Positions 20,501-49,198 of a stretch of DNA of 64,000 nt are shown piece by piece. Numbering within the stretch: the first letter of the stretch is position 1; every line of letters begins with the position of its first letter. The notes under the pieces are model-generated. The model ran no database searches. It saw only the letters and a list, made by a program, of their open reading frames with translations, and was not told the DNA's origin. This DNA is from an uncultured Alphaproteobacteria bacterium (GTDB lineage Bacteria; Pseudomonadota; Alphaproteobacteria; Rs-D84). The stretch lies in assembly GCA_944389265.1 (NCBI GenBank), contig CALXLS010000002.1, positions 1-64,000 of the forward strand, in the 5' to 3' direction. The position numbers were made by a program, and so were the translations under genes.

Positions 20501-20955
20501 GCGTTTAATATCGACATACCAATAGGTCCTGTCTGTGCACCAGACAGACAAATCAATCCGTTTTTATGAGATTCTAATTCTTCAAAAGTTATATAAGGTC
20601 CCAAATGGTGGTTATCTTCACGCATATACATTACGCGATTTAATTCGCATAAGTTCAAATAACCTTCGTGGTTTTGAGCCAATAAAACTATACGCGACAA
20701 CGACCCCGCACGTAGTATTTTAGGGTCTGCCGTATGATGATTCAAAGATATTTCGATACCGATTATAGGTTGTACTTTATTTTTCGGCATAACATCAGAA
20801 AACTCTGCACAACCAGACATCAAATTCGTATCTGTCAATGCACACGCAGTCATTCCCAAGTTCTTGCACAAGTCGGGGATATCCTTTACTTTCAGCGTAC
20901 TTGCGCCTATTGAAAACCTAGAATGCGTACGAAGATGAACAAATTGATTTTCCAT
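17545..20955 (-). CDS. dnaE: DNA polymerase III alpha subunit
   Basis: Replicative polymerase. 1136 residues from ATG 20955 (MENQFVHLRTHSRFSIGAST). An N-terminal PHP domain is followed by the palm with GPGRGSGAGSIVAWALGIT and the catalytic PDFDVDFE, then the fingers and thumb (LNRPGPIAFIPQFIARMHG), a helix-hairpin-helix region and a C-terminal OB fold (PVHIAANVNSFSRRRTKTGK). The open frame continues 12 codons upstream but lacks homology. There is no clear ribosome site. Followed directly by rsmH. Confidence 0.96.
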   Translation of the reverse strand: MENQFVHLRTHSRFSIGASTLKVKDIPDLCKNLGMTACALTDTNLMSGCAEFSDVMPKNKVQPIIGIEISLNHHTADPKILRAGSLSRIVLLAQNHEGYLNLCELNRVMYMREDNHHLGPYITFEELESHKNGLICLSGAQTGPIGMSILNAQNDQARSYAKRFLEIFGDKFYMEIQRHGLEDEIKTEPEFLNIAQELNIPIVATNDVSFAANSDYESEDALSCVLGQTKVIDPDRPRKSSEQYFKSPDEMAELFSDLPEAIENTVIISQRCGFFVNVHEKPLLPRFGDDLEQECQMLRDHTMTGLAKNLAQHGITDTKPYYEQAEFELGVIINMGFPGYFLIVADYIDWCRKNDILTGPGRGSGAGSIVAWALGITHVNPLKYGLLFERFLNPDRISMPDFDVDFEPTGIERVLAYICDKYGHDSVCRIITFGSLQARGAIRDIGRVYGIPYSKSDRLSKLIPQDAKTLKVAVDSSPEIQEILKNDEDMDKVVRVAEDLEGSLRNLGQHACGVVIGDRPTTKIAPVYRDPANQLPSCQFDGHYLESAGLIKFDFLGLETLAVLKYALKLIQQTRGINVDLDKIPTDDEKTMKLWQSGMTEGIFQFDAPFVQQTLRKMHPTSFLEISALNALNRPGPIAFIPQFIARMHGEEKVEYVHPRAEPILKETYGIIVYQEQVMQLTRALAGFTRGQSDNVRKAMGKKIAKMLDELEGKFYEGCEKEQTLNREEAKELWEKFKEFAKYAFNKSHAIAYSIVANQCAYLKANYTPEFIAASMSSNLNDTDQLSLFVDDAKTNFGIQIIAPDINLSESLFTVRDGKIIYGLAAIKGVGTVATDAIVAERNANGKFRNLTDFAKRCAPIMNKRILEAFAKVGVLDSLEPNRAAIFMNADAILSYASKSKDSGNTLSLFANTVEDDVAEDRLKKNLPNTTPWTFGQKLENELSALGFYISAHPLDQYKHLIARAKLTTSATLESVGDRKPVHIAANVNSFSRRRTKTGKDMITISASDSHGNIDAVAFGDAAAEFAQILSKETVVLISGKSSNRDDRVSVFVDSITPLTQWVAKIANKITLDIYDQSVLQNVKKALAALKPGLTKVVLNLHTGDKVAAMALKGGVELGATTANDFVNLGIRVGIE

Positions 20956-29750: not shown

Positions 29751-29758
29751 TTATCTCA

Positions 29759-30075
29759 CAGATGCGCAGAGCATAACCGCCATAAACAAGCGGAGGAAAG
29801 TCCGGACTGCTTGGGACAGCATATCGGCTAATGACCGAGCGGAGTAATCCGACGATTAGAGCAACAGTGACGAATCGATTAAATTCGAGTGAAACGGGCA
29901 ATCTCTATGCGCAGCAACTTCAAATAGGTCCCCTATACATGTCCCATGTTGGGGACGGGTAGAAGGCTTGACATCTTGTGGTAACACATTATGCAGATTG
30001 ATTATGCTCACTACCTTGGTTTGGTCATAAAAAACGAGACCTCGGCAGAACAGAATCCGGCTTATAGTGCATCTG
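29759..30075 (+). ncRNA. rnpB: RNase P RNA (bacterial type A)
   Basis: Catalytic RNA that matures tRNA 5' ends. Ends pair as CAGATGC/GCATCTG (helix P1). The universal GGAGGAAAGTCCGGACTG lies near 29791, the central AGAGCAACAGTGACGAA near 29857, GTGAAACGGGCAA near 29890, and the 3' core GGCAGAACAGAATCCGGCTTAT near 30043. Length is about 317 bases. Followed at once by a terminator. Confidence 0.96.
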
Positions 30076-30102
30076 AAAAAACGCCCATTATGGGCGTTTT
30101 TT
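30076..30102. terminator. Terminator between rnpB and tolA
   Basis: AAAACGCCCA/TGGGCGTTTT perfect stem with TTA loop and T run on both strands. Confidence 0.9.
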
Positions 30103-46093: not shown

Positions 46094-46117
46094 AACCGCC
46101 GAAAGGCGGTTTTTTAT
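46094..46117. terminator. Terminator between acpS and the saposin-like gene
   Basis: AACCGCC/GGCGGTT stem with GAAA tetraloop and T run. Confidence 0.9.
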
Positions 46118-46767
46118 TCTGAATAATAACAATTATTCGGTGTAAAAACATAAGTTCCAGAATCATCTAACACATAAACACCTTCTGCTATATAACAAGA
46201 AGTCACAGTTGTTGAACCCGGATAAGAATGAGCATACACACCATTTAAAGATGGGCATTGTATACAACCAGAAGAACCGTTTGTACTACTACCATAAAAA
46301 CCATCTGCACACCTATATTCAACTTTGGTATTACAAACCCCACAATTACATACCGCCTCATAAATTCTTGCCTGATAACCAGTAGATGCAGCACGCCAAT
46401 CTGTCGTATTACACCCAACACAATCAGGGCAGGGTTCTGTTCCTCCTCCACTTGAACATAATGCTAATTCTTTACAAACTGTATCTACATCATGCCCTAT
46501 ATTATATAGTTGAGACATAGCATAACCATAAGTCTCTATCAAAATCCTAGCCTGATTAGCCATCATTGCAGGCAGCATACTCGCTGTGTCTTCCATTATA
46601 GCAATAATTTGCTCATCCGAACAATTCATTGCAACCATACACTCTTTATCTACTTGTCCTAATAAGGCTTTACATAAATCACAGTCACTACTTGAAGATG
46701 CATAAGCAGAATCACCCAAAAAAGGTGTAACCGATATTAGCAATAAAATAAAAAAAGTTTTTTTCAT
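46114..46767 (-). CDS. Secreted saposin-B-like domain protein
   Basis: 217 residues from ATG 46767 (GGAG upstream). Signal peptide to about A23. Residues 28-104 match a saposin-B domain: C29xxC32, the CSLLP-like ASMLP (62-66), ETYG (78-81), C98xxxxxC104. Distances between the positions equivalent to Cys3-Cys4, Cys4-Cys5 and Cys5-Cys6 are 10, 24 and 5 residues, as I recall for human saposin C. Positions 3 and 4 are both Ala (A62, A73), and an extra pair C43/C49 is present. Saposins bind and perturb lipid membranes. Residues 110-217 are Cys-rich modules (CPDCVGC, CNCGVC, CIQC) resembling those of the giant repeat protein. It has a long leader with two small ORFs. Confidence 0.8.
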   Translation of the reverse strand: MKKTFFILLLISVTPFLGDSAYASSSSDCDLCKALLGQVDKECMVAMNCSDEQIIAIMEDTASMLPAMMANQARILIETYGYAMSQLYNIGHDVDTVCKELALCSSGGGTEPCPDCVGCNTTDWRAASTGYQARIYEAVCNCGVCNTKVEYRCADGFYGSSTNGSSGCIQCPSLNGVYAHSYPGSTTVTSCYIAEGVYVLDDSGTYVFTPNNCYYSE

Positions 46768-46771
46768 GTTC

Positions 46772-46912
46772 TTACTCCTGATTTTTTCTAAATGAAAAAC
46801 CACCAAGGTAATTGGTGGTCAGGAGGTTGAGAACAATCGTAAGAATTGTGTCGCGTATTGTTAATATTCCGCGAACCCTCCTGACCAGTACGATCAGGAG
46901 TTTATTTTTCAT
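46772..46912 (-). CDS. Possible leader ORF of 46 codons, rich in Leu/Ile/Val
   Basis: ATG 46912 to TAA 46774-46772. The product begins MKNKLLIVLVRRVRG and contains ILTIVLNLL; about 17 residues are Leu, Ile or Val. Its stop lies four bases before the saposin-like start codon and overlaps its ribosome-site region, so the two may be translationally coupled. It uses codons such as AGG AGG, CTC and CTG that are rare in neighbouring genes. It could instead be a by-product of the structured RNA. Confidence 0.35.
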   Translation of the reverse strand: MKNKLLIVLVRRVRGILTIRDTILTIVLNLLTTNYLGGFSFRKNQE

Positions 46913-47004
46913 CGTAATAATAAAACTGGCGCAAATTGCGCGCCACAGATACTTATTCCGACGCTTACGCAGAGGTTCTCACACCCCATCGACAGAACAC
47001 CCAT
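46909..47004 (-). CDS. Possible leader ORF of 31 codons
   Basis: ATG 47004 (about five bases after the predicted transcript start) to TGA 46911-46909, which overlaps the ATG of the next small ORF in the pattern ATGA. The product has four Cys/Gly-rich elements (MGCENLCVSVGISICGAQ). No homology is known to me, and it is offered only because of the overlap chain. Confidence 0.25.
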   Translation of the reverse strand: MGVLSMGCENLCVSVGISICGAQFAPVLLLR

Positions 47005-47015
47005 CGACAAATAAA

Positions 47016-47044
47016 ATTTTACATTTTTTAAGTAAACAATGCAA
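47016..47044 (-). promoter_or_regulatory. Promoter of the saposin-like transcription unit
   Basis: Reverse-strand TTGCAT (47044-47039), 17-base spacer, TAAAAT (47021-47016), placed just downstream of the terminator of the preceding gene. Confidence 0.6.
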
Positions 47045-47045
47045 G

Positions 47046-47071
47046 AAAAAAGCCCCTTTATGAGGCTTTTT
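47046..47071 (-). terminator. Terminator after the 47073 gene
   Basis: Reverse strand GCCTC/GGGGC stem with ATAAA loop followed by TTTTTTC. Confidence 0.75.
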
Positions 47072-47072
47072 A

Positions 47073-49184
47073 TCAAAACAATGGCGGGAAACAATCACCA
47101 CCAGTTTCTGGGCAGCAATTAAAACCAGCATCTCCCATATCTGTATAAATTTCACCGGCACAACAACCATTCATATCTGGTGCCGCCCCATCCGGGCAAA
47201 TAGGCATGTCATCTGAAACATATTCCTCTTCTTCATAATATGGCGTATCTGTTTCATATTCAGGATCTGCAACAAACATCTTTTCATTCTGAGAAACATT
47301 ATAAGCAGGCTTACTTGCAATAATTTCTTCCTCTGTTGGGACAACAGGTTCGGGTTCAGAAATAACTTCTGGTTGATTTATAGGTTGAATAAAAGGTTCA
47401 ACATCTTCTACTTCAACCGCAACAGGCTCTGGTTCCACTACAACAGTATCTTGCTGAACAGGAACTATCACAGGAACGGGTTCTGGTTCTATTTCTGTCT
47501 CGATCTGTACAGGCTCTACTTTTTCAGGAACGGGAACCTCTATTTGAACAGATTCCACATTTACTTCCTCTTCTACAGGAACTTCAGGTATAAAAGCAGA
47601 TTCTGCACTGGTATCCAATTCATCTAAATTTTTTTCTGGTTGTACAGTTTCTTCAACCTGCTGCAAAGGTGCGGTTAAATCTGGCGTATTATCACTGCTT
47701 ATATTTTTTTGATACAGCCATAATGTAAATATAGACAATGCTATTAATAAAACCAACATTATATAATACAACAAAGTCGGTTTTTTAGGCGCAGGTGTTG
47801 TAGGAACAGCACCACCAGTAATAGGTGAAACAGGTCTAAAATCAGAAGACACCGGAGCCGGTGAAATATTATTATTAAAAGTATCCTTTAAATCATCATT
47901 TACATTTGTATTAAATGTTTGTTCTGGCACCACGGGTGCAGGTCTTTGTTCTGCTTGTTCCGTTTGCGGGAACGCTTCATTTGGCACACTAACTTGTGGT
48001 GTTTCAACAGATGTAATAGTATCTAGAACCGGCGCTGTCTGTTTTTCTTCTTCTGCCGCCACAGGTCTAACATCTATCGGGTTATTTTCTTGTACAGTCC
48101 GTCTAGAAACAGGCGGTACAAAAGTCAACGTTTCATCAGCAGAATTATTATCATGAACAGCAATTTCCTTAAAATCATTTTCAATTTTAGGGGTCGACTG
48201 TTGAACGACAGGTTCCGTATCAATACTTCCGAAATCAATAGGTTTAAAAGCGATTTCTTCATCTAATATTTCAGGGTCTTTATCAAACAACGGTTTTATT
48301 TCTTCTTCATCAGCCATTTGTTCTGCCTTTTGTTGTTCTACGAAATTATTTTGTACTTCTTCATAAAAATCTGTATCTTGCTTTACTGGGACAGGGGCAT
48401 CTTGCTTTACGACCAAATCTTTATTTGATTGCCTTGCAGGCAAACTTACACTACTTTCACGAGATTTTTTTATTACACTTGTATCAACAGGTTCTCTGCT
48501 TAATATACGACGAGCAATCTCTGCATCTTCGTCAGCCGCCACCAAACGTTTTTGAGCGTTTAACAATCTTTTTTTTGCTCTACTTAATTTTTCGTTTGTC
48601 GCATCAATCTGAGCCTCTGTTTTTAAAATTTTAGCAGCAGACTGTTTAGTAGGTTCTTTACCGACTTGTTTTTTCTGTTGTGAAAGTTTTGCTCTTAATT
48701 GCTTTAACTTTACTTGCAATTCAGCAATTGTTTCATTTGTTTTTAATATTGTTTCACGCGTCTTAATTGCATTAGATTCTGAATTTTCCAATCTTTCTGC
48801 CGCGGCCCTACGCACAGAAATATCACGAATCGCCGCCAATGCAGACAAATCAAAATCTAAATTTTCGCCATTTTCATAATCGTTTATCAACCGTTCATAG
48901 ATATCCAACCCATCGTATTCAATGTCTAACTTTTGATATTTATTGTCCTTTTTAGGTCTAACATTTTCTAAATCTACCCCATAATCATTTGATAAAATAT
49001 CATCCCACTTACGATTTTCGACAGGATTCATAACCAATAAAACATTAGGTTTTCTATCATTTATCGTGCTATCAACAACAAATATCAATTCACCTGCGGC
49101 ACCATAAAAAGCACGCAATAAATTTCCAGATATTTCGTATTCTTTTTGCGTAAGGTAAGGCATTTGTTCTCTCTCACTTGTCAT
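47073..49184 (-). CDS. Large bitopic membrane protein with coiled coil, Pro/Glu/Val stalk and Cys-rich tip
   Basis: Not recognised. 703 residues from ATG 49184 (GGAG eight bases upstream; the frame opens three codons earlier). Residues 1-115 form a globular part (YLTQKEYEISGNLLRAFYGA), 125-215 a coiled coil (AELQVKLKQLRAKLSQQKKQ), 220-460 an acidic disordered region, and about 468-488 one membrane helix (LLYYIMLVLLIALSIFTLWL). The outer part is rich in Pro, Glu and Val (EPEPVPVIVPVQ) and ends in a Cys module (ICPDGAAPDMNGCC, NCCPETGGDC). There is no signal peptide, so the N-terminus should be cytoplasmic. It is 15 bases downstream of gcrA and probably co-transcribed. Confidence 0.75.
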   Translation of the reverse strand: MTSEREQMPYLTQKEYEISGNLLRAFYGAAGELIFVVDSTINDRKPNVLLVMNPVENRKWDDILSNDYGVDLENVRPKKDNKYQKLDIEYDGLDIYERLINDYENGENLDFDLSALAAIRDISVRRAAAERLENSESNAIKTRETILKTNETIAELQVKLKQLRAKLSQQKKQVGKEPTKQSAAKILKTEAQIDATNEKLSRAKKRLLNAQKRLVAADEDAEIARRILSREPVDTSVIKKSRESSVSLPARQSNKDLVVKQDAPVPVKQDTDFYEEVQNNFVEQQKAEQMADEEEIKPLFDKDPEILDEEIAFKPIDFGSIDTEPVVQQSTPKIENDFKEIAVHDNNSADETLTFVPPVSRRTVQENNPIDVRPVAAEEEKQTAPVLDTITSVETPQVSVPNEAFPQTEQAEQRPAPVVPEQTFNTNVNDDLKDTFNNNISPAPVSSDFRPVSPITGGAVPTTPAPKKPTLLYYIMLVLLIALSIFTLWLYQKNISSDNTPDLTAPLQQVEETVQPEKNLDELDTSAESAFIPEVPVEEEVNVESVQIEVPVPEKVEPVQIETEIEPEPVPVIVPVQQDTVVVEPEPVAVEVEDVEPFIQPINQPEVISEPEPVVPTEEEIIASKPAYNVSQNEKMFVADPEYETDTPYYEEEEYVSDDMPICPDGAAPDMNGCCAGEIYTDMGDAGFNCCPETGGDCFPPLF

Positions 49185-49198
49185 AAGACACACTCCAA

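Follow-up and report, generated by a model that had tools for sequence, protein, structure and literature searches.

What is the function of the long leader that precedes the gene for a 217-amino-acid (aa) secreted, cysteine-rich protein (46114..46767)? The leader spans positions 47044-46768 of the window, the whole 64,000-nucleotide (nt) stretch of DNA that was analyzed. It lies on the minus strand, as do its gene and all elements named below. A sequence-only reading had described segments A, B, C and D with mutually exclusive pairings, of which D holds the ribosome site, and had compared the leader to an attenuator or riboswitch. All of these segments, including the ribosome site, were found on the minus strand. 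Comparison with related copies led us to the reading, to which we give a probability of about 0.7, that the leader, joined to an intrinsic terminator, is a C4-type antisense RNA precursor whose branch is related to sRNA-Xcc1.

Layout and alternative helices of the leader

The leader begins with a promoter-like site (47016..47044; TTGCAT at 47044-47039, a 17-nt spacer, and TAAAAT at 47021-47016), followed by P0, a 5′ hairpin with which the transcript is predicted to start (46989..47008). Hairpin H1 (GGGG...CCTC, 46972..46987) carries segment E (GAGAAC, 46980-46975) in its loop, and segment F (CGTAAG, 46964..46969) comes next. Helix P2 (CGTC/GATG, 46910..46963) encloses a GC hairpin with a U-run (46928-46944). 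It is followed by segment A (CTCCTGA, 46900-46894), which competes with C for B, and by segment B (GGTCAGGAGG, 46886-46877), the 5′ strand of the closing stem of a C4-like core. Inside the core are hairpin P4 (CGCG/CGCG with the loop AATA...AATA, 46852..46873), hairpin P5 (ACAAT/ATTGT, 46833..46849), whose loop L (CTTACG, 46843-46838) is the partner of F, and segment C′ (GTTCTC, 46829..46834), the partner of E. After an AA, segment C (CCTCCTGACC, 46826-46817) closes the stem as its 3′ strand, and its final CC doubles as the base of terminator T (CCACCAA/TTGGTGG plus TTTTT, 46795..46818; the hairpin itself at 46818-46800). The Shine-Dalgarno region D (ATCAGGAG, 46782-46775), TAAGAAC (46774-46768) and the gene complete the order. 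The promoter-like site, P0, D and TAAGAAC were read from the sequence, and P4 from sequence and alignment. The two inner hairpins noticed in the earlier reading, P4 and P5, and the three-helix core are thus present, and its hairpin with a T-run before the gene is the terminator. The E:C′ pairing, the pairing of F with the P5 loop and the 5′ hairpins had escaped that interpretation.

A transcript start downstream of A had been named as a finding that would speak against the switch. The promoter-like box lies 5′ of P0, and A is therefore inside the predicted transcript. A TATAAT-like box (at least 5/6 matches) just 5′ of the 5′ hairpin was present in 131/143 copies, against 46.6 expected, and the P0 stem differed between copies with compensation. 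Upstream, on the minus strand, a 706-aa gene (47073-49193) precedes a terminator-like hairpin with a T-run (47040-47075); the leader is therefore probably an independent transcription unit.

Folding of the 171-nt RNA gave −49.2 kcal/mol, compared to −30.9 ± 3.9 kcal/mol for shuffled sequences (z = −4.74; 0/200 as good). We then examined the helices in an alignment of 58 full-length sequences. A:B was paired in 99.8%, B:C in 98.8% and the terminator in 99% of cells. E:C′ was paired in 100% of cells in all 58 rows, and F:L in 92.7%, each with two-sided changes at 5/6 pairs. Our copy finder required A:B, B:C and a terminator, and the copy counts that it gave for these helices are therefore selected; those for E:C′ and F:L are not. 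P5 (99.7%), P2 (93.4%) and H1 (90.9%) were also largely paired, and in H1 the strand GAGG occurred solely with CCTC. Two-sided changes were seen at 3/5 terminator pairs. When partners were slid by 1 to 3 columns as a control, pairing fell to 35-52%. Thus, comparison shows the helices E:C′, F:L, the alternative A:B and B:C, and the terminator, in a transcript predicted to start at P0.

The mutually exclusive pairing of A:B and B:C, proposed in the sequence-only reading, is conserved in relatives. From one subfamily to another, the triplets A/B/C co-vary as CTCCTGA/GGTCAGGAGG/CCTCCTGACC, CTCCAAC/GGTTGGAG[G or T]/[C or A]CTCCAACC and TTCCCGA/GGTCGGGAAG/CTTCCCGACC. Within subfamily 1, B:C is nearly invariant, so that its support comes from the other subfamilies. 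The last B base, which A leaves unpaired, changes together with C (GGTTGGAGT/ACTCCAACC in L211, L212, L214, L231, L232, L235 and L239), and a pair is inserted in B:C in four loci (GGTTCAGGAGG/CCTCCTGAACC). B:C and T overlap in all copies and in distant loci. B begins with GG in 160/178 copies and the 3′ end is CCACC-like, the sequence signature of a C4 RNase P site. A conserved GC-rich hairpin followed by a U-tract marks T as an intrinsic terminator; at least five T residues within 8 nt after its stem were present in 178/178 copies, the U-run being a criterion of the finder. The GC hairpin and U-run inside P2 are also terminator-like. The hairpin with T4 occurs in 101/127 subfamily-1 copies, similar structures are found in P1 C4 and sRNA-Xcc1 leaders, and this element may serve for pausing or early termination.

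The earlier reading had also proposed that A pairs with D over nine bases and that the exposure of the ribosome site depends on the helix formed. In the window copy the 9-bp A:D pairing exists, and C/C′ pairs with D in the minimum free-energy (MFE) structure. CAGGAG is common in D of subfamily-1 copies (65/121), and among subfamily-2 copies it is rare (1/28). However, A:D of at least 8 bp was found in only 27/121 subfamily-1 copies and 1/28 subfamily-2 copies, and in subfamily 2 A and C track B, not D. The ribosome site is thus not the conserved partner of A, and we consider a translational switch, in which A or C hides D, quite improbable. A 46-codon open reading frame (46772-46912) spans A, B, C and D in the window copy. 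We rejected an amino-acid leader-peptide attenuator: this frame starts with ATG here, and the sister copies L002 and L003 have ACG at that position.

Variable address segments and the likeness to C4 and sRNA-Xcc1

If pairing is locus-specific and immunity-like, E/C′ and F/L are expected to change fast, and with full compensation, even between copies that are otherwise near-identical. Located by context alone, E matched C′ perfectly in 127/127 copies, in 24 variants (13.5% when shuffled). F:L runs of at least 6 were present in 127/127 subfamily-1 copies (about 10% when shuffled). E and L lacked an excess of similarity within genomes (E, area under the curve [AUC] 0.52, p 0.23; L, AUC 0.53, p 0.085); the other tested segments were more similar within than between genomes (AUC 0.59-0.65, p < 1e-5). 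Among within-genome pairs that are otherwise near-identical, 21/21 differed in E or L with the pairing kept. This fast compensated change is not explained by simple drift and fits antisense RNA specificity. Avoidance of equal addresses within a genome was not significant: 0/316 pairs within genomes and 25/7685 pairs between genomes shared both addresses. Two or three tandem leaders, each with its own E/F addresses, precede one gene or none at L207, L264 and L266; the L207 tandem belongs to the window's own genome (contig C4:20626-20729 and 20838-20947).

Element order and spacing are those of the phage P1/P7 C4 precursor (Rfam RF01695 and RF03163, clan CL00128); in P1, this antisense RNA maintains dormancy. 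The P1 precursor contains a P0-like hairpin, an a1-bearing hairpin (Rfam c4-a1b1), b1, a GC hairpin with ATTTTT and then the c4 core, with an A-like competitor (TTACGCCC:GGGCGTGA). In its 77-nt core, which starts with GG and ends with CCACC, a hairpin loop holds b′, and a′ precedes the closing strand; a2 and b2 follow the core, at the icd ribosome site. In the window leader, P0 corresponds to the first c4-a1b1 hairpin, H1/E to a1, F to b1, loop L to b′ and C′ to a′, and B shares its initial GG with the C4 RNase P site. As in C4, the counterparts of a1 and b1 lie upstream of the core and are complementary to those of a′ and b′, of which the first precedes the closing strand and the second occupies a hairpin loop. 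Segments a′ and b′ are variable in C4, and so are their counterparts here.

The two systems also differ. At the ribosome site of the following gene, the window branch generally has no a2/b2; an intrinsic terminator follows the core instead. It precedes chromosomal genes, in many copies per genome. Between T and the ATG, a downstream target of the a2/b2 type was not detected in subfamily 1, where a locus's own pairing did not exceed that of swapped loci (p 0.11-0.68); subfamily 2 showed a weak excess (p 0.017). In the window copy, TAAGAAC beside the start codon pairs partly with C′ and L, which in subfamily 1 is not above chance. The Rfam C4 model gave no match in four genomes of the genus (G000, G073, G089 and G022; E ≤ 0.5), nor did cmscan of the copies, and we therefore file the element as a C4-like variant and not as a C4 member. 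One report describes RNase P cleavage of the C4 precursor at a GGW site and assigns specificity to a′/b′ (PMC5320573). The window also contains a gene for class A RNase P RNA, the RNA of the C4-processing enzyme (29758-30080). The C4-like "Group 1" small RNAs (sRNAs) of Acinetobacter baumannii resemble the window family in expansion in a host genome, processing from longer transcripts and a variable a′; unlike the window family, they are not described in the accessible part of that report as terminator-bearing leaders of secreted-protein genes (PMC5320573).

The absence of a known class, stated in the sequence-only reading, holds for the window copy, which matched no Rfam class, RF02221 included, at gathering or relaxed thresholds. 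Its layout is nevertheless that of C4 precursors, and sRNA-Xcc1 (RF02221) is the nearest Rfam family by sequence, matching the B-to-C part of sister copies below its cut-off (E 2e-8 to 1e-3; 42.5 bits for L220). The best sister copy (in G089) scored 50.4 bits (E 2.0e-8) against a gathering cut-off of 53 bits. The RF02221 consensus, a 9-bp closing stem with two inner hairpins, was seen in L272 aligned to the model, and the window copy has the same helices. sRNA-Xcc1 was mapped as an 88-nt RNA (PMC2996969), lies upstream of symE in Xanthomonas cassettes (PMC12444791) and has several copies in Xylella (PMC12189769).

RF02221 relatives were found in 53/388 Pseudomonadota genomes and in 0/14 controls. 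Like the window family, sRNA-Xcc1 has the closing stem, P4 (AATACAA/GAAUA), P5 and the upstream partners H1/E and F. An upstream partner of P5/C′ with at least 7 Watson-Crick pairs was present at 28/30 RF02221 loci (19% when swapped). A downstream partner was present as well at 19 of the 30 (13% when swapped), often as E′-GGAG-F′-ATG, and both E′ and F′ surrounded the ribosome site at 17/30. Only 3/30 loci had a U-tract. RF02221 loci thus mostly lack the U-tract and have E′/F′ near the ribosome site, whereas the window branch shows the opposite. A:B at RF02221 loci was no better than when swapped. The sRNA-Xcc1 loci L278-L307, from many Proteobacteria, have the full C4-like upstream parts and downstream E′/F′ copies; by eye, some of the genes that follow resemble phage antirepressors or KilA-N/Rha proteins.

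A small-molecule riboswitch would treat E:C′, F:L, P2, P4 and P5 as an aptamer and A:B/B:C/T as the expression platform. The combination of one core with two exchangeable platforms, the terminator in the window branch and E′/F′ at the ribosome site in RF02221, is consistent with such a device, as are the conserved loop bases AATA and GAAT. Yet the would-be aptamer helices are the most variable part, the C4 layout needs no ligand, and the downstream genes share no pathway. Nothing favors a metabolite ligand, and this part of the earlier reading is unlikely in our view.

Distribution and gene context

The core (46796..46902) matches R1, our covariance model of the A-to-terminator part from which B:C was left out, with 106.7 bits. 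R1 found about 20 copies in the window's own genome of 0.93 Mb (E ≤ 0.01) and up to 55-57 copies in relatives of about 1 Mb; its E-values are rough because calibration was shortened. A DNA search of the own genome returned four more copies, each before a different secreted-protein gene. R1 matches were present in 170/190 genomes of the order and in a few other Alphaproteobacteria; a wider search of a phylum sample at 1e-5 gave no match outside the genus of the window genome. Named records with copies are Enterousia-like metagenome-assembled genomes (MAGs) from gut and rumen, from lineages with reduced genomes, for which a symbiotic or parasitic life has been proposed (PMC12306168). In other Alphaproteobacteria families, a model that contains neither E, F nor B:C detected seven loci, in which E:C′, F:L, A:B, B:C and T are kept with new sequences; the element order was established by a coded check for 6/7 and by eye from the sequence for L276.

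The many copies per genome, some with near-identical flanks (G022), are reminiscent of a mobile DNA repeat, whose hairpins would serve transposition and not RNA function. However, the long-range helices show two-sided compensation, orientation and start-codon distance are fixed, a promoter box and a U-tract are present, and an exact-pattern search of viral contigs gave no match. Given its fixed placement before genes, the mobile-repeat reading was already disfavored, and we regard it as highly improbable.

Copies lie mostly before genes for secreted, cysteine-rich proteins. Other products are a Chlamydia PMP-repeat (autotransporter-like) protein, an outer-membrane barrel or porin, glycosyltransferases and HTH proteins. 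The product of the window gene has a weak saposin-like match below the Pfam cut-off. The short secreted cysteine-rich proteins (46114-46767; L208-L220, L247-L263) form a large family with a motif like YYGSSTNGTSGCxxCPSSGGVYG, and those tested had no Pfam match above the cut-off.

A ribosome site and ATG lie within 75 nt after T in 155/178 copies. The distance from terminator stem to start codon has a median of 33 nt (interquartile range 31-36), and in the window copy the terminator hairpin ends about 33 nt before the start codon. This short distance leaves little room for a second promoter and, together with the narrow 31- to 36-nt spacing in half of the copies, argues against an independent sRNA gene with its own promoter and terminator, behind which the following gene would be expressed separately. 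The leader does have its own promoter-like box and terminator, sRNA-Xcc1 was mapped as a discrete RNA, and in a few copies (L062, L091 and L092) a same-strand gene directly after the leader is absent. We nevertheless hold an independent sRNA gene to be a minor possibility. At L091, L092, L098, L101 and L080, a long inverted repeat (e.g., GGTGACACGG...CCGTGTCGCC) follows the leader instead of a gene.

Proposed mechanism and meaning

The C4-type leader would work as follows. In the default fold with E:C′, F:L and A:B, the terminator would form and transcription would stop before the gene. If B:C formed instead of A:B, the C4-like core would arise, the base of the terminator would be weakened and read-through would increase. 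In this form, the GG...CCACC ends would become an RNase P substrate, and cleavage would release an RNA of ~75-105 nt with a′ and b′ free, which would pair in trans with sites of the same E/F sequence. In the window branch, matching sites could be demonstrated only within the locus itself, at E and F, and self-specific control of its own leader is therefore the likeliest action of the released RNA. Estimated without pseudoknots, the free energy of the B:C fold exceeded that of A:B plus terminator by 12 kcal/mol; a switch from A:B to B:C would therefore need help.

In pT181-type attenuators, transcription attenuation is under antisense control. The window family would work similarly if the nascent leader of the same locus is the target of the released RNA, with the difference that its antisense RNA comes from the same strand and the same transcript.

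The window leader is a conserved and unusually abundant C4-type leader with a terminator, a greatly expanded variant of C4-type antisense leaders. It connects Rfam sRNA-Xcc1 and the phage C4 system with an undescribed RNA family that reaches 57 copies per megabase in Enterousia-like gut bacteria, a connection absent from the literature that we found. Although sRNA-Xcc1 has been described as a trans-acting RNA that stands alone, our reading predicts that it is excised from the 3′ part of a leader and that its first target is the downstream gene. With the family, dozens of paired addresses are naturally available in a single cell, and it is a candidate regulator of surface proteins in uncultured symbionts. 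More speculatively, a reduced gut symbiont may have made a phage immunity device into a genome-wide code, in which dozens of C4-type leaders with their own fast-changing addresses (E/C′ and F/L) release antisense RNAs, each specific for the nascent leader of its own locus and acting via the terminator. If this is true, genes for surface and secreted proteins would be switchable one by one.
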